The position numbers were made by a program, and so were the translations under genes. Positions 5,845 through 26,682 of a DNA stretch of 40,892 nucleotides are shown here, piece by piece. The notes beneath the pieces are model-generated. The model saw only the letters and a program-made list of their open reading frames with translations, was not told the origin of the DNA and ran no database searches. Source of the DNA: Thermodesulfobacteriaceae bacterium. GTDB taxonomy: Bacteria > Desulfobacterota > Thermodesulfobacteria > Thermodesulfobacteriales > Thermodesulfatatoraceae. Within the stretch, counting starts at the first letter, position 1; the number at the start of each line of letters is the position of its first letter. The stretch lies in NCBI GenBank assembly GCA_015494065.1, contig WGCA01000002.1:1-40892 (forward strand). The letters are read 5' to 3'.

Positions 5845-6177
5845 TTAAAAGAGAAGTTTTACGTAAAGTAGAGGATTGTTCTTCAGGGACGCCAAAAAGG
5901 CTGCCTTAACAAGGAGGGTAAGTTTGGTGAAAGGCTCCTTTCCGGGCCGGGAAGCCCTCGTAATACCTAACAACAGGGGTGGTGAGAATCGTTCCCCGGG
6001 TTTGGTAAAAATGGTGTCTTCTTTGGTTTGTTTACAGGTGGAAGGACACTCACAGCCGGTAAAATGATTCTCAACCTTTACTCCCTTTCCAGGGGAAAAA
6101 CAGTAAACGGGCCCACCCGTCCACCATATTCCGCTCGCAAATAGCAGCAGAAGACATAGTTTAAAATAATTTCTCAT
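5845..6177 (-). CDS. small Cys-containing secreted protein heading the metal-efflux operon
   Basis: A 110-residue protein not recognised as any named family. The start at 6177 gives a signal peptide (RNYFKLCLLLLFASG core, residues 2-16); the frame stays open upstream but would then run through the end of nifE, so the longer version is rejected. After the signal come Cys26 and a cluster Cys42, Cys44 and Cys48 in a GCECPSTC segment that could bind a soft metal. No strong ribosome-binding site is visible. It is 86 bases upstream of the TolC gene on the same strand and behind its own promoter-like element, a place where other metal-efflux operons carry small periplasmic accessory proteins. A periplasmic metal-binding accessory role is inference from position and cysteines only. 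Confidence 0.6.
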   Translation of the reverse strand: MRNYFKLCLLLLFASGIWWTGGPVYCFSPGKGVKVENHFTGCECPSTCKQTKEDTIFTKPGERFSPPLLLGITRASRPGKEPFTKLTLLVKAAFLASLKNNPLLYVKLLF

Positions 6178-6190
6178 AGTTAAAAGGTAA

Positions 6191-6219
6191 AATTTATCGG
6201 AAAAAACCGAATAATTCAA
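6191..6219 (-). promoter_or_regulatory. sigma-70-like promoter with a dyad in its spacer
   Basis: Read on the minus strand, TTGAAT and TAAATT are separated by exactly 17 bases, a plausible housekeeping promoter for the small protein and the efflux genes. The spacer contains the inverted repeat TCGG-N6-CCGA (6197-6210). A dyad inside the spacer is where MerR-type or repressor proteins bind metal-responsive promoters. No regulator gene is adjacent, so the control protein is unknown. Confidence 0.45.
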
Positions 6220-6248
6220 GTTTTTATTATCTTTTTTATTAGCTTTGA

Positions 6249-7508
6249 TCACGGACCAAGAAAGCGCCAGACCGGGGCGGAGAGAACTTTTACGAGATCG
6301 CGGGCCAGATTGAGAAAGCCCTCGTACCCGGTGTAAGGACCCCGGTCTACGGTTTGAGGGAAGGAAAGGGTGGGGAAACCGAGTTTTATAGGGCGCCATT
6401 GATCCCGGGCGTTAGTTAGGACCACGTCCGGCTTAAGAAACTTGAGGAGATACTCCAGTTCGTCCTCAGTAGGGTTGTCGGAGACGAGCTCCGTATAGGC
6501 CCGCAGTTTTTGGTGATCCTCTTCTCGACCGAAGATAGAACCGACGGCTACTACTTCGAGCCCGAGTTCCCGGAGCATGCGGGCAAGGGGGCCCAATTTG
6601 CCCGCCCCAAGGAGAAGGAGTACCCGCCGGCCCGAAAGCAAGTCTTTATAAGACGACAAGGTCTTTTGGAGTTTATCTTCGTCCTTTCTGGTCCGGGCGA
6701 GCACCTTTTTCCCGGGAAAGCCGAAGAAGGATGCTATCTTCTTTAAAGATCGAGCAATGGCCGTCGGCCCGTAAAAGGAAACCCGCTCAAATGGCATCCC
6801 GAAGCGGCTTTTAAGGTCTTTAGCCAAAGCCTCAGCGGTAGAACCGCAGAGGAGGAGATTGAGGTGGGCCCGGGTGAGGGTTTTAATTTCAGACCAGGAG
6901 GTCTCTCCGGTGAGCACGGTATGTACCTTGACTCCAAGGCCTTCAAGGAGGCTTTTGATCACCCGGGCCTCCCCGGCGACGTTGTATTCCCCCAGAAGGT
7001 TCACCGTGGGTTCTTCGGCCAAAGGTCCTGGTTTCACCAGCCCCAGAAGGACTTCGTAGGCCAGGGCGTGCCCACCGGCCTGAGAAAAGGAAGAGAAACC
7101 CGGACAGGCCACCGTCTTTACGGGCAGCCCCTTTTCTTCGAAGAGCCGCGCCAGACCCGCCACGTCCTCCCCGATAAGGCCGGAAACACAGGAAAGGTAA
7201 ACGAAAGCCCCCCGGGCCTCGGGATTTAGGGCAAAGGCCTCCCTGAGGGCCTGGGCCAGGTGATCAAGCCCCCCGAAGACCACTTCTTTCTCGGTCAAGG
7301 CGGTGGTGTAAAGGGGATAAGGGACCATGCGGACCAGGCGACCGTAGTAACCGCAGCCCACAGGGCCATGGACCAGCTGCACTGTCTCTTTTACGGGGCC
7401 GAGGACATAGCGAGCACCGAAGAAGGCACAGGCCCGCTGCCCGAGGCCAGGACGGCTGGGAAGACCACAGGGATTTTGCCAGAAAGGGACAAAGGGTTGA
7501 GCAGACAT
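6249..7508 (-). CDS. nifE: nitrogenase cofactor-scaffold protein NifE (short form)
   Basis: A 419-residue member of the NifD/K/E/N superfamily, best matched to NifE, the scaffold on which the NifB product matures into the nitrogenase cofactor. Three conserved cysteines for a P-cluster-like [4Fe-4S] site are present: Cys27 (RACAFFG), Cys52 (HGPVGCGYY, 25 residues later as in NifE) and Cys107 (LSCVSGLIGEDV). The cofactor-region cysteine is Cys221 (LLCGSTAEAL). The NifE-like tags YTTALTEKEVVFGG and LGEYNVAGE are also present. Where catalytic NifD has HS(Y/W)-GPY near the C-terminus, this protein has SFPQTVDRGPYTGYEGF and lacks that His, supporting NifE rather than NifD. It starts 9 bases after nifK with a GGGGG ribosome-binding site. 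No nifN follows, so it either works alone or its partner is elsewhere. Confidence 0.8.
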   Translation of the reverse strand: MSAQPFVPFWQNPCGLPSRPGLGQRACAFFGARYVLGPVKETVQLVHGPVGCGYYGRLVRMVPYPLYTTALTEKEVVFGGLDHLAQALREAFALNPEARGAFVYLSCVSGLIGEDVAGLARLFEEKGLPVKTVACPGFSSFSQAGGHALAYEVLLGLVKPGPLAEEPTVNLLGEYNVAGEARVIKSLLEGLGVKVHTVLTGETSWSEIKTLTRAHLNLLLCGSTAEALAKDLKSRFGMPFERVSFYGPTAIARSLKKIASFFGFPGKKVLARTRKDEDKLQKTLSSYKDLLSGRRVLLLLGAGKLGPLARMLRELGLEVVAVGSIFGREEDHQKLRAYTELVSDNPTEDELEYLLKFLKPDVVLTNARDQWRPIKLGFPTLSFPQTVDRGPYTGYEGFLNLARDLVKVLSAPVWRFLGP

Positions 7509-7517
7509 GAATACCCC

Positions 7518-8990
7518 CTATTGATGCGTCCGGTCATCTGGATACTGGTGGTCAAGGATGGCGTTTACGATCCGCGCCAGAAACCGCTCCCCACCCCGAT
7601 AGCCGACGATAGGTTCCCGCTGGTAACCCACCCGGTCGTAAACCGGAAAACCAAAACGGACCAGGGGCACCTGGATTTCCCGGGCGATGTTGACACAGCG
7701 GGAATGACCGAGGATAACGTCCGGAATATCGTTTTTCAGGGCGTATTCCCATTCGAACTGATCACCGCCGTTCATGACCACCGGCTGGTGACCATATTCC
7801 TCACAGGCCTGCCGGATGTCCTCCTCGGCCCGGCGACTTTTGGTCCCTACAAGAATGTAGGTGGGGACCATACCCAATTCGCAAACAAACCAGGTGGCTG
7901 CGGCCACAAAATCTGGGTCGCCACACAGGGCCACCTTCTTCATCATGGTGTAATGCAGAGTATCAGCCATGGCGTCAAGGAAAATACCCCTTTCCCAGCG
8001 GAGACGATCAGGAATAGGGCGATCGGTAGCCTCGGCCACATTCCTTAGAAAATGGTCGGTATTTCTCACACCGATGGGCATAGTCATGACGTAAGCTGGT
8101 ACCTTATAACGTCGGTCAAGCCATTGGGCCCCGGCAGAGCCGGCGTCCGGGGAAAGGGCAAAAATGGCCTGGGCATCACCGGCCCTTACGAAGGCCTCAA
8201 CCGGAGTGCCTCCCGGTGGGTAGTAGGGAATGCGGTCAGGCATACCTACCAGGGGGCAGTCCAGGGTCTCACTAATGTCAAAGAGGACCCGGTGGGAGAC
8301 CCCCATAAGTTCCATCATGTGCTTGAGTTCACGGATATCGCCGGGGGTCATCATCCCCGGGATGAGACAAACGTGTTCCCTGGTCTCTCCGCTCTTGCGC
8401 GCCAAGGCCTTAAGGAACTCACGGGAGGCGCGGTTATATCCTTCGACGTGGGAACCTGCAAAACTCGGGGTGTTTACTACCACGAACTTTACCGCCTCCC
8501 GCACTTCCGGACCCAATTCTTCTTCCATAAGATCCAGGGCCTCGTCGAGGAAACTATGAATATCATCTCCAATGACTTCGCTGGAGCAGGTGGTCACAAT
8601 GGCGATAAGCTCCGGCTGGTAACGACAGACAAGGTTGCGTACTCCACGAACGAGATTCTTACGCCCCCCAAAGACCGCCGCGTCTTCGTGAAAACTGGCA
8701 TTAGCGATAGTAGCCGGCTCCCGAAAGATCCGCGAAAAGGTATAACGTACGTAGGTGGTACAACCTTGAGCCCCCTGGACAAAGGGGATAGCCCGGTGCA
8801 CCCCGAGGGTGGCCCACATGGCCCCTAAAGGCATGCAGGTGTGCCCGGGATCAATACAAACCGCTCGGTTGGCTCTGGGAACCAGCTCTGGGGGCGGTGG
8901 GACGTATTCCCGGCTGAGGGGTTTCTTTTCGATCTTTAGATTCTTATAAGTAATTCCCTCGATAGGGATCTCTTTGACCTGGTTAATCAT
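7518..8990 (-). CDS. nifK: nitrogenase beta subunit NifK
   Basis: A 490-residue beta chain of the dinitrogenase component. The three P-cluster cysteines are visible: Cys52 (HTCMPLGA), Cys77 (GAQGCTTY, 25 residues later, as in beta-Cys70/Cys95 of Azotobacter) and Cys135 (TTCSSEVIGDDI). The NTPSFAGSHVEGY segment carries the serine equivalent to beta-Ser188. The C-terminal FPVYDRVGYQREPIVGYRGG is typical NifK. The start was set at the ATG at 8990, behind AAGGAGGAAGG; the frame stays open upstream, but that extension overlaps nifD and has no family content. The N-terminus is of the short type, as in VnfK, AnfK and anaerobe NifK. Confidence 0.92.
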   Translation of the reverse strand: MINQVKEIPIEGITYKNLKIEKKPLSREYVPPPPELVPRANRAVCIDPGHTCMPLGAMWATLGVHRAIPFVQGAQGCTTYVRYTFSRIFREPATIANASFHEDAAVFGGRKNLVRGVRNLVCRYQPELIAIVTTCSSEVIGDDIHSFLDEALDLMEEELGPEVREAVKFVVVNTPSFAGSHVEGYNRASREFLKALARKSGETREHVCLIPGMMTPGDIRELKHMMELMGVSHRVLFDISETLDCPLVGMPDRIPYYPPGGTPVEAFVRAGDAQAIFALSPDAGSAGAQWLDRRYKVPAYVMTMPIGVRNTDHFLRNVAEATDRPIPDRLRWERGIFLDAMADTLHYTMMKKVALCGDPDFVAAATWFVCELGMVPTYILVGTKSRRAEEDIRQACEEYGHQPVVMNGGDQFEWEYALKNDIPDVILGHSRCVNIAREIQVPLVRFGFPVYDRVGYQREPIVGYRGGERFLARIVNAILDHQYPDDRTHQ

Positions 8991-9030: not shown

Positions 9031-10461
9031 CTAAAAATCCTGACGGGCCAGCTGCCAAACCGGAGCCGCCACGGCCTGATAGATGTCCCGTGCAAAATTG
9101 ACGAATCCCCGAAAACCCGCGTAGGGTCCCTTTTCGTAGGAGTGGGAATTGAGGGTCGGTACCCCGAATTTGCGGACCAAGTATTTTTCCTTGAGCCCGG
9201 TAAGAAAGAGGTCTGGTTTACAGGTCTCAATCATCTCCTCGATCTCAAATTCGTTAGGGTTATCGATGATCAGGGTCCCGGGTTTTACCCGGTGAATGAT
9301 CTTTTCGTAATCTTCCCGGTGGCCAAAAGTGGTCATACAGGCCACTACCTCCATACCGAGTTCTTCCATGACTTTGGGCCAGTGCCAGACACGCGGGGCC
9401 CCGACGTAAATGGCCACCTTTTTGCCTGAAAGCCTTTCGCGATACCATTCAACGGCGGGTTTGATGGCCGTGATTTCTTCCTCGATGATCTCCTCGGCGC
9501 GGCGTCGCATTTTGTCTTCACCAAACCAGGCCGCAACGTCCCGCAGGGCTTTAGCCGTCTGTTCGATCCCGAAGAGGCTCACCCGCAGATAAGGGACCTT
9601 AAAACCCTGTTTGATGAGTTCGGCGATATAAGTAGCAGACCGCTGACAGTGGACGATACTGAGGCTTGCGTCCGGCAATTTGAAGAGATTTTCAAGACGG
9701 GCATTGCCGGTGAAGACGTTCAGGATCCGCAGCCCGAGCTTTTCAAACAGAGGAACAATGACTACTTCGTCCCAGTCGATGTTATATTCTCCGATAATGT
9801 TTACGTCATAAGGGGTCTTTTCTTCCTCCTTGAGGCAGACCTCCGGGTGTTCCTCACGATATTTGAGGAGCCATTTGTAAAACTGGAAGTTAAACTCGTG
9901 GTGTCCTTTGGATTGGGAAACGCCGCAAAACCCCGGAGAGGCACAGGCGAACACCGGTTTACCCACCTCTTTAGAGACCTCACGGGCCACCTGTTCGATG
10001 TCGTCCCCGATAAGGGCCGTGGAACAGGTATTGTAGATAATGGCTCCCCTGGCCCCGGGATTAATACGAAAGGCTTCAAGGAGGGCCTGTTTAAGCTTTT
10101 CTGTGCCCCCAAAAATAATGTCTTCTTCACTCATCGCGGTGGTGTAACAGTGGCGGCGATGGTTGGCTTCGTTTTCAAGTACCCCAGGGCGGGCCCAATT
10201 GTAGCCGTCCCCGAGGTGGCGTCTGGTGCCCCAGGTGTAGTAGCCACAGCCTACCGGGGCGTGAACCAGGTGAATGGCGTCCACGATCGGTCCGCCCACG
10301 ACCCCGCGGGCCCCGGCAAAGGCTCACCCTCGTTCAGTGAGATCGCCTGGTACCGTAGGGGCGTTGCATTGCGGCAGCGTGGAGCGTTCTTCTTCTACGA
10401 TGACCACGTGCTTGAGTCTTTCGGGGATACAGAGGTTACAGCGTAACTGGTGATACGGCAT
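9031..10461 (-). CDS. nifD: nitrogenase alpha subunit NifD with in-frame TGA at the Cys62 position
   Basis: This gene encodes the catalytic alpha chain, 476 residues if TGA codon 46 (10324-10326) is read through. The start at 10461 follows GAGGAGGTGA. The N-terminus (MPYHQLRCNLCIPERLKHVV) resembles VnfD/AnfD and anaerobe NifD. The family motif PG-x-(L/I)-(T/S)-ERG-C-A(Y/F)-x-GA reads here PGDLTERG-[TGA]-AFAGA, so TGA sits exactly on the P-cluster cysteine (Azotobacter alpha-Cys62). Cys72 lies 26 residues on, as Cys88 does from Cys62. Other ligands remain: Cys146 (NTCSTALIGDD), cofactor Cys272 (VHCQRS), the QSKGHH active-site tag and the cofactor His near 439 (SHSYEKGPYAGF). A shorter start at GTG 10299 would drop 54 conserved residues including the ligand. 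Readings, in order: selenocysteine, base-call error, recent nonsense mutation. The VnfD-like motifs leave Mo, V or Fe-only cofactor open, but no vnfG/anfG is present. Confidence 0.9.
10289..10326 (-). promoter_or_regulatory. TGA codon and candidate SECIS hairpin in nifD
   Basis: The first bases (10326-10324) are the in-frame TGA. Directly 3' on the coding strand two competing hairpins can form. One is a perfect 4-bp stem GGUC/GACC with the 7-base loop GUGGGCG (10303-10289), the loop starting 25 bases after TGA. The other is a GC-rich stem around GGCCC/GGGUC with loop GCG (10312-10300), extendable by C8-G28, C9-G27 and G10-U26 counted from TGA. Both satisfy two known bacterial SECIS features: a G at the start of the apical loop and a UGA-to-loop distance of roughly 16-37 bases. 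GC-rich coding DNA forms hairpins easily, so this is suggestive only. Confidence 0.4.
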
Positions 10462-10485: not shown

Positions 10486-11307
10486 CTAAAGACAAAGAGC
10501 CCCGGGTATACAATCCCCCTGGCCCGGCACACCAAAGGCATCAGCCCGGCAGCGTTTACAGGAAAGGAACTGGGGCATGAAACGAGCAGCCGTCTGACGG
10601 GCTTTACGTATCTGTTGCCCGTTAGGTGGTTTTTGGCCCCGGAAGTCCCCCAGGGGAATGAGGGGAATAATGTTCATGACACTTGCCCCGGCTTCGGCCA
10701 CTAGGCGGGCGATTTCTTCCATTTCGTGGTCGTTCACCCTGGGGACCAGGACGCTGTTGACCTTCACCCGGATGCCCGCCTTTGCAGCCAAGGCTATCCC
10801 CTCAAGCTGGCGTGCCAGAAGCAGAAAAGCCCCTTCGGACCCCAGTAAGCGCCTTTTTCTATCCTGGACAAACTTGACCAGCTTGGCCCCGGTCTCAGGG
10901 GTGGCAGCGCTTACGGTCACCGAGAGGAACTCCACCCCCAAGGCAAGGAGATTAGGAAGCCTTTCCGGCAGAGCAAGCCCGTTGGTGGCAATACAAACCC
11001 GCAGGTGAGGAAAGTGTTTTCGCACTATCCTTAAAGCTTCGAAGGTCTCCTCATTGGCCAGTGCTTCACCAGGACCAGCTATCCCCACCACCTCGATCCT
11101 CGGTTCAAGTTCAAGGGCCCGGGAGACCACCGCCATGACCTCCGCCGGAGTAATCACCCTGGTAGAAATTCCCGGACGAGACTCGTTAAGGCAACCGATC
11201 TTTCGTTCACAGTAAGCACACCGGATATTGCACTGCGGGGCTACGGGTAGATGGAGCCGGCCTACTAGCCGGTGTGCCTGTTCATCAAAACAAGGATGCC
11301 TAATCAT
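10486..11307 (-). CDS. nifB: nitrogenase cofactor radical-SAM enzyme NifB (compact form)
   Basis: A 273-residue radical-SAM enzyme that makes NifB-co, the 8-iron carbide precursor shared by all nitrogenase cofactors. Diagnostic features are HPCF at residues 4-7, the SAM-cluster cysteines Cys26, Cys30 and Cys33 (CNIRCAYC), Cys39, NESRPGI, GIAGPGEALAN and the C-terminal CKRCRADAFG. It lacks the C-terminal NifX-like domain of proteobacterial NifB, as is usual in archaea and many anaerobes. The ATG at 11307 follows AAAGGAGGT. It sits between nifI2 and nifD, 24 bases before the nifD start, so cofactor synthesis and structural genes share one transcript. Confidence 0.93.
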   Translation of the reverse strand: MIRHPCFDEQAHRLVGRLHLPVAPQCNIRCAYCERKIGCLNESRPGISTRVITPAEVMAVVSRALELEPRIEVVGIAGPGEALANEETFEALRIVRKHFPHLRVCIATNGLALPERLPNLLALGVEFLSVTVSAATPETGAKLVKFVQDRKRRLLGSEGAFLLLARQLEGIALAAKAGIRVKVNSVLVPRVNDHEMEEIARLVAEAGASVMNIIPLIPLGDFRGQKPPNGQQIRKARQTAARFMPQFLSCKRCRADAFGVPGQGDCIPGALCL

Positions 11308-11332: not shown

Positions 11333-11713
11333 CTAGAAAAGGGCCTCCAGATCCTTTTCACCGGTGCGCACACGCAAACTTTCTTCCACGGGCAGGACGA
11401 AGATCTTCCCGTCCCCGTGCTGACCGGTTTGATTTACTCGGATGATGGCGGCGACGACCTTTTCCACCATGGTCTGAGGCACCACGGCTATGATGAGACG
11501 TTTGGGAATAAAGGCCATCGGGGCCTCTTCGGCACGTTTGATTATCTCTGCGCTTACCCGGTAGGCCAGTTCCGGAATTCGGCCTCCCTGTTTACCCCGA
11601 CCGTAGACCTTGAGCGCCGTGAACGCGGGAAGCCCCATCTCCGCCAGGGCTTTTTTGGTGGCCAACATCTTGGTCGGACGCACTATGGCCATAATTTCGC
11701 AGAGCTTGCCCAT
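11333..11713 (-). CDS. nifI2: PII-like nitrogenase regulator NifI2
   Basis: A 126-residue PII-superfamily protein. It has the PII core with GRGKQGG before the T-loop and TGQHGDGKIFVLPVEESLRVRTGE at the C-terminal signature. The T-loop carries the long insertion typical of NifI2 (about residues 43-68). In methanogens NifI1 and NifI2 form a complex that blocks the NifDK-NifH interaction when 2-oxoglutarate is low, switching nitrogenase off after ammonia addition. The start ATG at 11713 follows AGGAGGC, 10 bases after nifI1. Placement inside the nif operon directly after nifI1 makes the assignment secure. Confidence 0.92.
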   Translation of the reverse strand: MGKLCEIMAIVRPTKMLATKKALAEMGLPAFTALKVYGRGKQGGRIPELAYRVSAEIIKRAEEAPMAFIPKRLIIAVVPQTMVEKVVAAIIRVNQTGQHGDGKIFVLPVEESLRVRTGEKDLEALF

Positions 11714-11723
11714 GGTCTGCCTC

Positions 11724-12041
11724 CTAAAGTTCGGGTTGTCCGGTACGGATGGTCCAGGCCCCCTTCACCGGCAGCACAAAGATTTTGCCGTCACCGAAAC
11801 GCCCGGTGCGGGCGTTCTCCATAATGGTCTCACAGACCCGGGCCACGGCCTCATCCTCCACTACCAGGAGGAGCATAGTCTTTTGCAGTTCGTCGTAGAC
11901 GATCTCCCCTAGGGTGAGACCGCCTTGTTTGCCGCGGCCCACCACGTCGATTCTGGTAAGGGCCAGAAATCCGGCCTCTTCTAGGGCGTCTATTACCTTC
12001 TGGGTCTTTTCTGGTCTGATAACGGCCTTGATCATCTTCAT
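11724..12041 (-). CDS. nifI1: PII-like nitrogenase regulator NifI1
   Basis: A 105-residue PII-family protein with VIRPEKTQKVIDALEEAG, VVGRGKQGGL and TGRFGDGKIFVLPV signatures, the partner of NifI2 in post-translational switch-off of dinitrogenase. The ATG at 12041 was chosen because GGAGG lies 8 bases upstream; a GTG three codons earlier (12050) would directly abut that site. The gene follows nifH after about 15 bases. The nifH-nifI1-nifI2 order is the arrangement known from methanogens and anaerobic bacteria. Confidence 0.92.
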   Translation of the reverse strand: MKMIKAVIRPEKTQKVIDALEEAGFLALTRIDVVGRGKQGGLTLGEIVYDELQKTMLLLVVEDEAVARVCETIMENARTGRFGDGKIFVLPVKGAWTIRTGQPEL

Positions 12042-12056
12042 CTTTTTCACCTCCGT

Positions 12057-13031
<975 letters not shown>

Positions 13032-13062: not shown

Positions 13063-13076
13063 AATTAACCCTTTTG

Positions 13077-14192
13077 ATGGCGGTCTTAGACACTACTCTT
13101 AGAGAGGGGGAACAGCGCTGGGGGATCTATTTCTCAACCAAAGTGCGCCGCGAGATTGTCCGGCGCCTGGTGGCTTTGGGGGTGGAAGAGATCGAGCTCG
13201 GGACCGTGGGCTGTCATCAGGACCTCGTGGCACTTGCGGCCTTCGTGCGGGAAATGTCTCCCGGTCTGCCGGTAAGCGTTTGGTCCCCCTTAAGAACCGA
13301 GGATCTCCGTGCCGCTATGTCCCTGGGGGCGATGCGCCTAAACCTTGGGGTGCCAGTCTCTCCTCTTCAGCGTGAACGGCGCCTGGGGCTTGGTCGGCAA
13401 GAACTTATTAAACGCGTGAAACATGTGGTAAGGCTTGCGGCAGATCTCTTTCCTTACGTAAGCCTGGGGCTTGAGGACGCCTCCCGTACCGAAAAAGATT
13501 TCCTCCTGGAAGTGGGACACGCGGCTTTTAGCGCCGGGGCCAGGCGTTTGCGCCTTTCCGATACCCTGGGGATACTTGAGCCCGTAGAAGTTATGCGCCT
13601 GGTACACTCCTTTAAAGAGAGCCTCCCTGGGGTGGAACTTGCCTTCCACGCTCATAACGACTTCGGTCTGGCTACCGCCAACGCCCTTACCGCCCTCTCA
13701 GCCGGGGCAGACTGGGTGGATGCCAGCGTACTCGGCCTGGGAGAAAGGGCCGGGATCGCACGTCTTGAGGAAATTCTAGCTTATCTTTATTTACGAAAAG
13801 GTAAAATCCACTATCGAATCCAACTCTTGCCGGAACTATGCCATTTTGTGTCCTGGCACGCCGGAGACCCCTGTTCGGAATTTAAACCCATCGTCGGACG
13901 CAAGCTCTTTTATTGCGAAACGGGCCTCCACGTAGAGGCCCTCTATAAGACCCCGGCGCTTTATGAACCCTTTCCGCCAGAATTGTTCGGTCTTGAGCGG
14001 CGTCTGGGGCTGGGGGCCAAAAGTGGCCGGGCGGCCCTTAAACATATGCTGGAACGCCTGGGATTACGCTTGAGACACCAAGAACTTTTAGTACTCCTGG
14101 AAGAAGTACGTCGAAGGTCGAGGGAATGTGGCCGTCCCCTCTCTGAAAAAGAGCTCCGGGAGCTGGCTAACAAGGAAAAAATTGTCTCTTAA
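13077..14192 (+). CDS. nifV: homocitrate synthase NifV
   Basis: A 371-residue member of the DRE-TIM metallolyase family (homocitrate/isopropylmalate synthases). It condenses acetyl-CoA with 2-oxoglutarate to homocitrate, the organic ligand of the Mo (or V) nitrogenase cofactor. The N-terminal DTTLREGEQ (residues 5-13) holds the metal-binding Asp and catalytic Arg. HAHNDFGLATAN provides the metal-binding histidines and GLGERAG completes the active site. The length matches NifV and is shorter than leucine-pathway LeuA. ATG 13077 is preferred over TTG 13074. No clear ribosome-binding site is seen, in keeping with the very close promoter. Context beside nifH and nifA supports NifV over lysine-pathway homocitrate synthase. 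Confidence 0.85.
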   Translation: MAVLDTTLREGEQRWGIYFSTKVRREIVRRLVALGVEEIELGTVGCHQDLVALAAFVREMSPGLPVSVWSPLRTEDLRAAMSLGAMRLNLGVPVSPLQRERRLGLGRQELIKRVKHVVRLAADLFPYVSLGLEDASRTEKDFLLEVGHAAFSAGARRLRLSDTLGILEPVEVMRLVHSFKESLPGVELAFHAHNDFGLATANALTALSAGADWVDASVLGLGERAGIARLEEILAYLYLRKGKIHYRIQLLPELCHFVSWHAGDPCSEFKPIVGRKLFYCETGLHVEALYKTPALYEPFPPELFGLERRLGLGAKSGRAALKHMLERLGLRLRHQELLVLLEEVRRRSRECGRPLSEKELRELANKEKIVS

Positions 14193-14195
14193 TTT

Positions 14196-14211
14196 TTAAC
14201 AAAATTGTTAA
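14196..14211. promoter_or_regulatory. TTAACA-N4-TGTTAA palindrome at the nifA start
   Basis: A perfect inverted repeat with 6-base arms fills the gap between nifV and nifA and overlaps the first base of the nifA start codon. The same half-sites recur upstream of amtB with a wider spacer. It may be an operator for autoregulation of nifA or an RNA element at its translation start. Confidence 0.4.
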
Positions 14212-15728
14212 TGCAAATCGAGGCCCTAAAACTAGAAGTCCTTTACGCCACCCATGGCCTTATTGGTCAGGCCCTGGAACTTGAAGAGGCCCTGCGGGAA
14301 ATTTTACGCATCCTGGCGGAAAAACTCGAGATGGCCCGGGCCGCGGTAGCTCTCTATGACGAGGAAGCAGGTCATCTTCGTATCCGGGCCTCCTTTGGCC
14401 TAAGCCCGCAAGAAGAAAGGCGTGGGATCTACCAGATAGGCGAGGGGGTGACGGGCAAGGTCTTTGAGACCGGTGAAGCAGTTGCGGTGGCGGATATCCG
14501 TCAAGAACCCTTTTTCCTCAACCGCACCCGGGCCCGACCTTCAAAAGAAAGGATCTCCTTTATAGCCGTGCCCATCAGATTCGGGGAGGAGACCCACGGG
14601 GTACTCTGGGTGGACCGGCTCTTCCACCTCGGGGTACCTCTTGAGGAAGACGTCCGCTTCCTTGAGGTCATCGCCTTCTTTGTGGGGCAGCTTGTGGGTC
14701 TGGCCCGCAAGGTAGCGGATCGTGAAAAGGCTCTGCGGGCCGAAAACTTTGCCCTGCGCACGGAGCTTACCACGCGTTTGAGCGATTTTCTTTGGGGTTC
14801 CAAGAGTCCGGCGATGAGGGAAGTCCTCAACCTGGTACGCCAGGTAGCGCCCACCCGGGCCACGGTACTCCTCCTCGGGGAATCCGGTACCGGAAAGACC
14901 CTTACCGCTCGCCTTATTCATGAACTAAGCCCTCGCCGGAAAGGGCCCTTCCTCAAGGTGGATTGCACCGCCCTGCCCGAAAACCTTCTGGAAGCCGAAC
15001 TTTTCGGGTACGAACGGGGGGCCTTTACCGGGGCAGACCGGGCCAAACCCGGACGCTTGGAACTTGCGGAAGGGGGAACGGTCTTCCTGGACGAGATCGG
15101 TGAACTCCCCCTCAGCCTTCAGGGAAAGCTTCTGCGCTTTATCCAGGAACGGGAATTTGAACGTCTGGGAGGGCGACGTACCATCCAGGTGGACGTACGC
15201 CTCATCGCGGCGACCAATAGAGACCTTGAAACCCTGGTAAAGGAGGGGCTCTTTCGCGAAGATCTCTATTTCCGGCTCCAGGTCTTCCCGATAAAGCTTC
15301 CTCCCCTCCGGGAAAGGCAGGAAGACCTTCCTGGACTAATAGAGTTCCTCCTCCGCAAGCTTGAAAAAGATTATCACCGGCGGCTGAGCTTTAGCCCGGA
15401 GGCCCTGGAACTCCTTTGCCAGTACCACTGGCCAGGAAACATCCGGGAACTCGAAAACTTACTGGAAAGACTGCTTATCACCGCCAAGGGACCGGTACGC
15501 CCCGAATTTCTGCGGCGTTTTCTGGCCACCAAACCCGGCCACCAATTACGTCCCCGGAAGGAACCCTCTCCTGAAGAAATCCGTGCGGCCCTGGAAAAAC
15601 ACGATTTTGTGATCGCCAGGGCCGCCAAAGAACTCGGCCTTACCTTTCGTCAGCTCCGTTACCGCCTTCAAAAACTGGGACTAGACCGCGAGATCACCCC
15701 CCGTCGAGGACGCCCCCCGCAAAAGTGA
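14211..15728 (+). CDS. nifA: NifA-type sigma-54 activator (GAF-AAA-Fis)
   Basis: A 505-residue enhancer-binding protein. Residues about 10-165 form a GAF sensor domain. Residues about 195-420 form the sigma-54-interacting AAA+ ATPase, with Walker A GESGTGKT (223-230) and the sigma-54 contact loop GAFTGAD (270-276). A Fis-type helix-turn-helix ends the protein (RAAKELGLTFRQLRYRLQKLG). The GAF-AAA-Fis order and location between nifV and amtB point to NifA, which would activate the sigma-54 promoters of nifH and nifV. It lacks the Cys-rich interdomain linker of oxygen-sensitive rhizobial NifA. ATG 14211 was chosen over TTG 14205. It starts 18 bases after nifV, so it is probably co-transcribed with it. 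Confidence 0.85.
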   Translation: MQIEALKLEVLYATHGLIGQALELEEALREILRILAEKLEMARAAVALYDEEAGHLRIRASFGLSPQEERRGIYQIGEGVTGKVFETGEAVAVADIRQEPFFLNRTRARPSKERISFIAVPIRFGEETHGVLWVDRLFHLGVPLEEDVRFLEVIAFFVGQLVGLARKVADREKALRAENFALRTELTTRLSDFLWGSKSPAMREVLNLVRQVAPTRATVLLLGESGTGKTLTARLIHELSPRRKGPFLKVDCTALPENLLEAELFGYERGAFTGADRAKPGRLELAEGGTVFLDEIGELPLSLQGKLLRFIQEREFERLGGRRTIQVDVRLIAATNRDLETLVKEGLFREDLYFRLQVFPIKLPPLRERQEDLPGLIEFLLRKLEKDYHRRLSFSPEALELLCQYHWPGNIRELENLLERLLITAKGPVRPEFLRRFLATKPGHQLRPRKEPSPEEIRAALEKHDFVIARAAKELGLTFRQLRYRLQKLGLDREITPRRGRPPQK

Positions 15729-23249: not shown

Positions 23250-24586
23250 AAAGGCCATACCAAAAACCCACGATCCTGAAACTCCAAGTGGGTTTTCTCC
23301 GGGAGAAGAAAAGCAGTCTTTCGCGTATGGTGCGCCAGGAAATAGACGGCGTGCCGGTAGCGGAACTGGCAGAAAAGTTCGGTTCACCCCTTTTTGTTTT
23401 TTCCGAAAAGAGACTCCGGGAACAATTCCGCTATTTAAAGAGGCTCTTTGAGGGGCATTACCCCCGGGTAGAATTCAGCTGGTCCTATAAGACCAACTAC
23501 CTGGACGCCATCTGCCGCATTTTCCACCAGGAAGGGGCCACGGCCGAGGTGGTCTCCAATTTCGAATACGAAAAGGCCCGAAGACTGGGTGTTCCCGGAG
23601 ATCAGATCGTTTTCAACGGTCCTTACAAGCCGAAGGAGATCCTGCGCCAGGCCGTGCTTGAAGGGGCGCGTATAAACGTGGATTCCCTGGACGAAATCCT
23701 GGACCTTGAAGAAATCGCCCGGGAGACCGGAGAGAAGCTGCGGATAGGGCTCCGGGTAAACATGGACACCGGTATCTACCCCCGCTGGGACCGTTTTGGT
23801 TTCAATCTCGAAAGCGGGGAAGTCCTGAACGTGGCCCGAAGAATCGCCGCCGGGGGAAGGCTTGAGGTGGTGGGACTACATTGTCACCAGGGCACCTTTA
23901 TCCTTGAGCCCGAGGCATACGGACGGGCCGCAGAAAAACTGGTGGATCTTTCGCAAAAGCTCGAAAATGACTTCGGCTGGACCATAGAATATCTGGATCT
24001 CGGAGGAGGCTTTCCCTCGCGCAACCGGCTAAAGGGTTTGTACCTCCCTCCGGAGGTGGCGGTTCCTCCCCTCTCCGAATACGCCGAAAAGATCGCCCGG
24101 GCGCTTCTTACAAGACTGCCTGCCGGGGATTATCCTCTCTTGATCCTTGAGACCGGCCGGGCCCTAGTGGACGAGGCTGGCTTTTTGATTACCACCGTAA
24201 GAGCGCTAAAACGTCTTCCTGACGGCCGCCGGGCTTACATCCTTGACGCCGGCGTAAACCTGCTTTTCACCGCCTTCTGGTACCATTTCCGGGTGGAGGT
24301 AGAAAGGGAAATACCCGGTCCACCGGAACCCTGCGTCCTTTACGGCCCCCTCTGCATGAATATTGACGTGGTGGAGGAATCGGCGCTCCTTCCCCCGCTT
24401 GCACGTGGCACCCGCCTTGTTCTCTCTCCGGTGGGCGCTTATAACGTCACCCAGTGGATGCAGTTCATTACTTATCGGCCCCGGGTGGTCCTTGTGACGG
24501 AAAATGGAAACGCGGAGGTCATACGTGAGGCCGAAACCCTTGAAGACATAGTACGGCGCGAAAAAATTCCCGAACACCTGAAATGA
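23246..24586 (+). CDS. fold-III PLP decarboxylase with leader-like N-terminus
   Basis: A 446-residue alanine-racemase-fold PLP enzyme of the ornithine/diaminopimelate decarboxylase family. PLP Lys82 is in SWSYKTNY; HCHQG (212-216), DLGGGFPSRN (GGGF 253-256), ETGR (302-305) and GPLCMNID (Cys370) are the remaining active-site landmarks. Two depart from the norm: ETGR replaces EPGR, and CMNID replaces the usual C-(D/E)-(S/G)-x-D. A GAYNVTQWMQF segment replaces the GAY-Y-N region of LysA. Hence neither lysine nor ornithine decarboxylation can be assumed. The first 20 residues, outside the fold, contain PYQKPTILKLQVG, similar to Y-x-x-P-x-L leader motifs bound by PqqD-like domains. It overlaps the ATP-grasp gene by 4 bases. 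Confidence 0.85.
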   Translation: MKRPYQKPTILKLQVGFLREKKSSLSRMVRQEIDGVPVAELAEKFGSPLFVFSEKRLREQFRYLKRLFEGHYPRVEFSWSYKTNYLDAICRIFHQEGATAEVVSNFEYEKARRLGVPGDQIVFNGPYKPKEILRQAVLEGARINVDSLDEILDLEEIARETGEKLRIGLRVNMDTGIYPRWDRFGFNLESGEVLNVARRIAAGGRLEVVGLHCHQGTFILEPEAYGRAAEKLVDLSQKLENDFGWTIEYLDLGGGFPSRNRLKGLYLPPEVAVPPLSEYAEKIARALLTRLPAGDYPLLILETGRALVDEAGFLITTVRALKRLPDGRRAYILDAGVNLLFTAFWYHFRVEVEREIPGPPEPCVLYGPLCMNIDVVEESALLPPLARGTRLVLSPVGAYNVTQWMQFITYRPRVVLVTENGNAEVIREAETLEDIVRREKIPEHLK

Positions 24587-26682
24587 AAGAGCTCCAGCCG
24601 ATAATAAATTCGGTCCTAAACAGCTATGCGGGCATCCTCTTCCTGGCCAGACCGGCAGCGGGGCTGGCCATCCTCCTGTTTACGGTCCTTATAAGCCCGA
24701 ATCTGGGCCTATCAGCCCTGGTTTGCGTCTCTTCGGCCTACGTATTTGCCCGAATTTTGGGGCTTAAAGAAGACTTCCTCCGCCTGGACTTTTATATCTA
24801 CAATCCCCTGCTGGTAGGGCTCTCTATCGGCTATTTTTTCAAAATCGATTCTTTGAGCCTGCTTTTCCTAGTGCTGATGGGGATTTTTACCTTCCTTCTC
24901 ACTTACGGACTCTCTTCGGCCTTCTGGTATTACTTTCGGCTTCCGGTCTTGAGTCTCCCCTTCGTGGTAGGAAGCCTCATCGCTGCTTTGGCCTCCTACC
25001 ACTACTCCAACCTCTTCGTAAAAAGTCTCTATAAGTTCCCGAGCTTTTCTTATTTTTCCCTTCCTCTTTGGCTTGAGGGCTTTTTGCGTTCCCTGGGGGC
25101 CATCTTCTTCATGCCGCAGGTCATGGTGGGCTTGGGACTTTTCCTGGTCATCCTTCTTTCTTCAAGAATCATGGCCCTGCTCTCCGTTTTGGGCTACGCC
25201 ACGGGGACCATGATCGCCTATTTTTTTACGGGCTCTTTACAGGAAGCATTTTCCAACCTTAACTATTTTAATTTCATTCTCATTGCTCTGGCCCTGGGAG
25301 GAGTCTTTCTTATTCCCTCCCCCAAAAGCTATCTCATGGCCTTGGTGGCTTCGGCTATAGCGGTCCCTCTGACCGAGGCCTCTCAAGTCTTTTGGGAAAA
25401 ATTCGGCCTCCCGGCCTTTGCCCTACCTTTTAATGTTACTACCATGCTCATCCTCTACGCTCTCGGGCTTTCCGGCTACCGAAAACTCACCCTCTACTAC
25501 CGGGGCACCCCCGAAAAGACCCTTGACCATTATTTGACCCTAGAAAAGAGGTTCCCGGCCCGAACCTGGGAGGTGGATCTTCCCGTTAGCGGCAGGTGGC
25601 TCGTCTGGCAGGGGCCCGACGGCAAGTTTACCCACAAAGGACCCTGGCGTTACGCCATAGATTTTGTGGTCGCTGACGAATCCGGCCGCACTTATGCCGG
25701 AGAGGGTTTAAAGCTTGAGGATTACTACGCCTACCACAAACCCGTATTTTCTCCGGTCACCGGAAGGGTAGTAGAGGTGGTAGACAGTCTTCCAGACGAA
25801 CCCCCGGGCTCGGCCAATAAGGATTACCCCTGGGGCAACCACGTGATCATCTATGACCCGCGTGGTTTCTACGCCGTACTGGCCCACTTAAGCCCCGGTA
25901 CCCTCAAGGTGAAAAAGGGAGATTGGGTGGTCAAAGGGGCCCTGATCGGCCTTTGCGGCAGTTCTGGCTATTCCCCCGAGCCCCATCTTCACCTCCACCT
26001 CCAGTCCGGCCCGGAGATCGGCTCTCCCACCTTGCCCTTTGTCTTTAGTGCTTACCTCAAGAACGGAGAATTTCACGACTTCTCCCTCCCCGCTGAAGGT
26101 GAAACCATAGAACCTGCTCCTCCTGAAAGGAGACTCAAGCAGACTTTAAACTTCCTCCTGGGTCAGGAGTTCGAATATGACTTCTTTAAAAACGAAGAAT
26201 TTAATGAAAGATTTACCCTCTGGGTGGAAATGGCCCCGGACGGGACTTTTTATTTTACCGAAGGGAAGGGAAAACTTTATTTTGCTCAGAGGGGCTCGGC
26301 CTTTTATTTTCTCAATTTTGAGGGTCCGAGAACTTCTCCTCTGCGCTATTTCTTCCTGGCCGCCCCCAAGATTCCCCTCCTTCTGAAAGAGGGACTCTCC
26401 TGGGAAGATTATCTACCGCTGGAAGTCTCCCTGGGCCCCCTTAAAAAAGGCTTATATCTCTTCATCCTTTCCTTCTGGCCCTCGTTTCTAAAATTCAAAG
26501 CCCGCTATCAGGCATTAAATAGATTTGACTTTAAGGGCGAAATTACTTTTAATGACGAAAATATTAAAACAACAGTAAGACTAGCCCCTGGCAAAGGTTT
26601 TACGGAAATAAAAATCGAAAAAGAAAACGAAAACCTCACATTCAGAAGGAGGACAAATCATGAACAAGAAAGTAGTCTTTAA
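24583..26682 (+). CDS. urea-transporter-like domain fused to M23 peptidase
   Basis: A 699-residue fusion. Residues 1-305 are a multi-helix membrane region with the urea-transporter (UT) tag YIYNPLLVGLSIGYFF. Residues about 335-505 form an M23 (LytM-like) metallopeptidase domain with THKGPWRYAIDF supplying the first His and Asp, and PEPHLHLHLQ the HxH zinc motif. A C-terminal beta-rich region of about 180 residues is unassigned. UT channels pass urea or small amides; M23 enzymes cut peptidoglycan cross-links, which would place this domain in the periplasm. No signal peptide is needed because the UT part anchors it. It overlaps both neighbours (4 and 23 bases). Confidence 0.8.
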   Translation: MKELQPIINSVLNSYAGILFLARPAAGLAILLFTVLISPNLGLSALVCVSSAYVFARILGLKEDFLRLDFYIYNPLLVGLSIGYFFKIDSLSLLFLVLMGIFTFLLTYGLSSAFWYYFRLPVLSLPFVVGSLIAALASYHYSNLFVKSLYKFPSFSYFSLPLWLEGFLRSLGAIFFMPQVMVGLGLFLVILLSSRIMALLSVLGYATGTMIAYFFTGSLQEAFSNLNYFNFILIALALGGVFLIPSPKSYLMALVASAIAVPLTEASQVFWEKFGLPAFALPFNVTTMLILYALGLSGYRKLTLYYRGTPEKTLDHYLTLEKRFPARTWEVDLPVSGRWLVWQGPDGKFTHKGPWRYAIDFVVADESGRTYAGEGLKLEDYYAYHKPVFSPVTGRVVEVVDSLPDEPPGSANKDYPWGNHVIIYDPRGFYAVLAHLSPGTLKVKKGDWVVKGALIGLCGSSGYSPEPHLHLHLQSGPEIGSPTLPFVFSAYLKNGEFHDFSLPAEGETIEPAPPERRLKQTLNFLLGQEFEYDFFKNEEFNERFTLWVEMAPDGTFYFTEGKGKLYFAQRGSAFYFLNFEGPRTSPLRYFFLAAPKIPLLLKEGLSWEDYLPLEVSLGPLKKGLYLFILSFWPSFLKFKARYQALNRFDFKGEITFNDENIKTTVRLAPGKGFTEIKIEKENENLTFRRRTNHEQESSL

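Follow-up and report, generated by a model that had tools for sequence, protein, structure and literature searches.

How does a nitrogenase gene yield its protein when the codon for a metal ligand reads as a stop? The question is raised by nifD in a 40,892-nucleotide stretch of DNA from a Thermodesulfobacteriaceae bacterium (contig WGCA01000002.1, positions 1 to 40,892), referred to here as the window. The gene (9031..10461, minus strand) runs from ATG 10461, downstream of the ribosome-binding site GAGGAGGTGA, to TAG 9031, and its frame is open except for one TGA at codon 46 (10324..10326, minus strand). Read through this codon, it gives a nitrogenase alpha subunit of 476 residues that scores over the cut-off in a profile search (TIGR01862, 547.7 bits) and whose best solved homologue is 9spz_A (650.9 bits), a structure for which no describing paper was found. 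The TGA stands in the context TERG-U-AFAGARGVV, 26 residues from the next P-cluster ligand, Cys72, and corresponds to alpha-Cys62 of Azotobacter vinelandii, a terminal P-cluster ligand (the alpha-62 numbering is taken from PMC3760896). The broken frame, the ribosome-binding site, the flanking residues and the spacing are all as first reported in a preliminary description of this DNA. Very probably its product is a NifD of full length: UGA 46 would be decoded as selenocysteine (Sec) with the help of SelB, tRNA-Sec and a SECIS element, and Sec would replace the ligand alpha-Cys62.

Earlier predictions of selenocysteine in NifD

Howard et al. (2013) predicted Sec at alpha-62 of NifD in three species, Candidatus Desulforudis audaxviator, Thermodesulfatator indicus and Desulfotomaculum kuznetsovii, together with a SECIS element and sel genes, and proposed that Sec62 covaries with beta-Ala92; N2 reduction had at that time been proven in no species of the Sec type (PMC3760896). 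The preliminary description had been aware of no described selenocysteine nitrogenase, and the novelty implied there falls with this earlier prediction. Sec-NifD is already known in kind, and the gene in the window adds a member. The two have in common Sec46 (alpha-62), the nitrogenase group, a bSECIS, the genes selA, selB and selD, and the lack of nifN, but the present gene comes from another genome, and the Sec codon is named as amber TAG in the text of PMC3760896 whereas it is TGA (opal) in the window and in all relatives read. From its length and its identity to Thermodesulfatator relatives, the gene would belong to the clade of their Group III. A 2026 review likewise lists the nitrogenase component I subunit alpha as a selenoprotein family (TIGR01862, WP_153802866.1, GenBank annotated); it is the same protein family with Sec, given in the passages seen as a table entry, with no distribution or SECIS analysis (PMC13188914).

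No work showing that a Sec-NifD species fixes N2 came up in the literature, nor any protein-level evidence for Sec in NifD. As far as found, the wider distribution, the repeated Sec/Cys switches (at least eight), the relict SECIS elements and the status of beta-Ala92 as a clade marker appear to be new, and at the level of sequence the comparison made here strengthens and extends the 2013 prediction (PMC3760896).

The TGA codon among related genes

A close nifD was present in 12 of the 60 genomes searched (the window's own included), with a single in-frame TGA in 11 of the 12 and an uninterrupted frame in one. Once the Desulfofundulus, Moorella and Carboxydothermus classes were added, the set comprised 44 distinct nifD genes of the clade, and the codon-46 site is TGA in 23 of these and TGT or TGC in 21. 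The TGA genes come from two phyla, Thermodesulfobacteriota and Bacillota; the codon occupies precisely this position in Thermodesulfatator, Thermosulfurimonas, Desulfovirgula, Desulforadius, Carboxydothermus islandicus and Desulfofundulus thermosubterraneus; TGT or TGC is found in Moorella and others. One TGA relative encodes a protein 97% identical to the NifD of the window in an independently assembled genome, and the TGA assemblies include isolates. Among culturable species, Thermosulfurimonas dismutans, Thermodesulfatator autotrophicus and C. islandicus have the TGA form. A base-call error and a recent nonsense mutation had both been considered as competing explanations. That 22 further distinct genes, drawn from many assemblies, share the TGA rules out an error as well as a private nonsense mutation, and the probability that sequencing or assembly has turned TGC or TGT into TGA is practically nil.

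A nonsense mutation that left nifD as a pseudogene would match a suggestion in the literature. NifD was called fragmented in some Desulfofundulus strains, and their weak fixation was tentatively put down to this, nitrogenase activity being very low in D. salinus 435 and absent in D. kuznetsovii (2024 paper, PMC11206085), and annotation pipelines would split a nifD of this kind. However, a single TGA site common to two phyla is not what decay would leave, and further disruptions are seen in none of the 23 TGA genes. The median pairwise dN/dS of the Sec genes is 0.165 upstream of the TGA and 0.084 downstream of it, and the latter value implies that the downstream part of NifD is a selected protein. 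The ligands are likewise kept, as the preliminary description had held: in 44/44 NifD, Cys occupies alpha positions 88, 154 and 275, His position 442, and Cys or Sec position 62, and the NifK cysteines are present. A pseudogene is thus extremely unlikely, and the earlier view that the gene is not decayed stands. Because the nifD of D. thermosubterraneus has the conserved TGA and an intact SECIS, at least some of the 'fragmented' NifD of Desulfofundulus are, by analogy, probably Sec genes, and records of 'fragmented' nifD may need correction.

Readthrough of the TGA by a suppressor or by the ribosome, with insertion of a standard amino acid (Trp or Cys), would also give a full-length protein, as any readthrough does. 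It is nevertheless very unlikely: TGA is a normal stop in the window, an intact hairpin goes with the TGA, the Sec machinery is encoded in the genome, and among the 44 genes Sec at residue 46 alternates with Cys and never with Trp. A general reassignment of TGA was rejected, as the window follows the standard code and other genes in it, for example nifE, end in TGA.

The SECIS hairpin

The Sec nifD genes have GCCCGCGGGGTCGTGGGC in common right 3' of the TGA. It folds as a 7-bp hairpin of the bSECIS type (10294..10311, minus strand; 5' arm GCCCGCG, 4-nt loop GGGU, 3' arm CGUGGGC), recognised from folding and conservation. The loop begins 19 nt past the UGA. In bSECIS elements a G opens the apical loop, and GGGU begins with this G. 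The fdhA and selD genes of the same genome have similar 7-bp hairpins at UGA-to-loop distances of 18 and 19 nt.

The 18-nt hairpin is identical in 21/23 Sec genes and intact in 0/21 Cys genes, and its identity spans the two phyla though the proteins fall to ~60% identity with the NifD of the window. The Sec genes that depart from it are L069 (two changes) and L070 (five; Desulfovirgula). The hairpin together with an adjoining GGACC (10289..10311, minus strand) forms a stretch whose synonymous sites hardly vary among Sec genes. Synonymous diversity over codons +5 to +11 is 0.038 in these genes, the minimum over 368 seven-codon windows in a ranking that requires at least 100 pairs per column (without this requirement a sparsely covered C-terminal window scored lower), and 0.559 in Cys genes, rank 296 of 368. 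Such conservation at synonymous sites in the TGA genes only argues further against a pseudogene. The stability of the hairpin showed no excess over same-composition shuffles (z of 0.55 for the window's own), and no Rfam family matched in the window at the gathering threshold; since the folding energy is unexceptional, the argument for a SECIS rests on conservation and not on energy.

The Cys-type NifD of the clade (e.g., Moorella, ~62% identical) and 9spz_A share the family and the ligands with the protein of the window but have Cys for Sec, and the clade's Cys genes have the SECIS absent or broken. Six of them (L058, L079, L085, L089, L090, and L092) are one base off the hairpin, the mismatch always lying in the loop or in the 3' arm, and we read these as relict SECIS elements after reversion from Sec to Cys. 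Together the six offer a naturally occurring set of broken SECIS elements.

Selenocysteine machinery of the genome

The genome from which the window derives (2.03 Mb, 99.9% complete) contains selA, selB, selC and selD, all four of which the preliminary description had proposed to look for. SelA scores 638.5 bits, SelB 383 bits, SelD 388.6 bits and tRNA-Sec, with a TCA anticodon, 82.9 bits. Two formate dehydrogenases have an in-frame TGA, and so does selD itself (L105), in the context AAGUAAKIPP. SelB was also found in 17/17 further genomes tested, with Sec-NifD and Cys-NifD alike; hence, the Cys forms are not explained by loss of the machinery. For the same reason, the presence of SelB does not tell whether a genome has the Sec or the Cys type of NifD.

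Sec insertion at NifD residue 46 is strongly indicated by the genes compared. The hairpin just 3' of the UGA would direct SelB and tRNA-Sec to insert Sec, and Sec46 would stand in for the terminal P-cluster ligand alpha-Cys62. The proposal that nifD encodes a selenoprotein is supported by the conservation across two phyla, the hairpin intact with TGA only, the relict SECIS elements, the purifying selection and the four sel genes. Likewise, the assignment of the TGA to the P-cluster cysteine proved correct, the alpha-62 column being Cys or Sec throughout, and the relatives show TGA alongside TGT/TGC with no decay. As Sec occupies the place of alpha-Cys62, the protein probably holds one P-cluster Fe by way of selenium, a ligation that would follow from homology. 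No Cys-type NifD was found as a backup in the genome, where PF00148 matches NifD, NifK and NifE only. From Sec insertion, P-cluster ligation and this lack of a Cys-NifD together, we infer that nitrogen fixation in the source organism depends on selenium.

Switching between selenocysteine and cysteine

A tree of 44 NifD proteins, with the Sec site and the SECIS codons left out, requires by parsimony at least eight Sec/Cys changes, of which seven are forced by well-supported branches. Parsimony itself gives no direction, and it is the relict hairpins that point to several losses from Sec to Cys. The nifD of Desulfovirgula thermocuniculi (L046/L070) is a TGA gene with a hairpin unlike all other Sec genes. 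In the tree it lies between Cys genes on a weakly supported branch (84/63), and it may have an alternative hairpin read from the sequence (CCGCGA, loop UGUGG, UCG-g-CGG), which is not the predicted optimum. This gene may have regained Sec independently, by way of a newly formed SECIS, or its TGA may be a nonsense mutation of recent date.

The NifK sequences bear on the proposed partner of Sec62. Among 43 of them, beta-Ala92 accompanies 23/23 Sec forms and 19/20 Cys forms. The covariation proposed in PMC3760896 therefore fails in the larger set, and beta-Ala92 was rejected as a Sec62-specific partner; it marks the clade, not Sec. When the NifD columns were screened for residues associated with Sec, uncorrected for relatedness, no ligand position stood out, and the top columns seem to reflect the clade or the C-terminus.

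Switching this frequent suggests that sulfur and selenium are interchangeable enough to evolve in both directions, which keeps room for an explanation driven mainly by regulation or supply. Under a regulatory explanation Sec is inserted, but its value would lie in making NifD translation selenium- or rate-dependent, as considered in PMC3760896, and not in a tuned P-cluster; what it contests is the function of Sec only, not its insertion. The early position of the codon (46 of 476), the tolerated exchange that frequent switching suggests and the lack of a Sec-specific partner residue all favour it. The location of Sec exactly on a metal ligand speaks against it, though weakly, as Cys codons are also where a TGA most easily arises and is tolerated as Sec. 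A purely regulatory value seems rather unlikely. It is conceivable, and put forward here only tentatively, that selenium matters to P-cluster function (for redox potential, heat stability or reactivity), that fixation is obligately selenium-dependent, and that the switches are adaptations to selenium supply or temperature.

Alpha-Cys62 is a near-universal P-cluster ligand of nitrogenases, and a natural exchange of selenium for sulfur there would be a built-in spectroscopic probe. The Sec/Cys sister pairs found here are natural test pairs. Selenium at a NifD ligand would tie the selenium cycle to the nitrogen cycle, and genomes with Sec-NifD alone, that of the window included, should require selenium for N2 fixation.

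The nif neighbourhood

The gene lies among other nif genes on the minus strand. nifK (7518..8990), encoding the beta subunit, was assigned by profile and alignment, with the P-cluster Cys present by alignment position and Ala74 corresponding to beta-92. nifE (6249..7508), found by profile search, encodes the third and last nitrogenase-superfamily protein of the genome. No nifN was found in the 99.9% complete genome by PF00148, so that cofactor assembly must do without the usual NifEN partner. On the other side of nifD are a short-form nifB-type radical SAM protein (10486..11307; TIGR01290, 254.8 bits, under the curated cut-off), two P-II family proteins found by profile search (11333..11713 and 11724..12050), both of NifI type as judged from position, and nifH for the nitrogenase iron protein (12057..12992; TIGR01287, 459.9 bits, above the cut-off). 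The nifH profile begins at residue 40 of the listed open reading frame (12057-12992, minus strand), and the true start is therefore probably downstream of GTG 12992. On the plus strand follow a probable homocitrate synthase of nifV type (13074..14192; TIGR02660, 333 bits, under the cut-off, with HMGL-like and HCS_D2 matches) and a protein in which a domain search finds a GAF domain, a sigma-54 activator domain and a Fis-type HTH, an architecture like that of NifA (14205..15728). An open reading frame of 184 residues (5845-6399, minus strand), with no Pfam or NCBIfam match, overlaps the end of nifE. Elsewhere in the window, a 699-residue protein (24583-26682, plus strand) has a urea transporter domain fused to an M23 peptidase domain.
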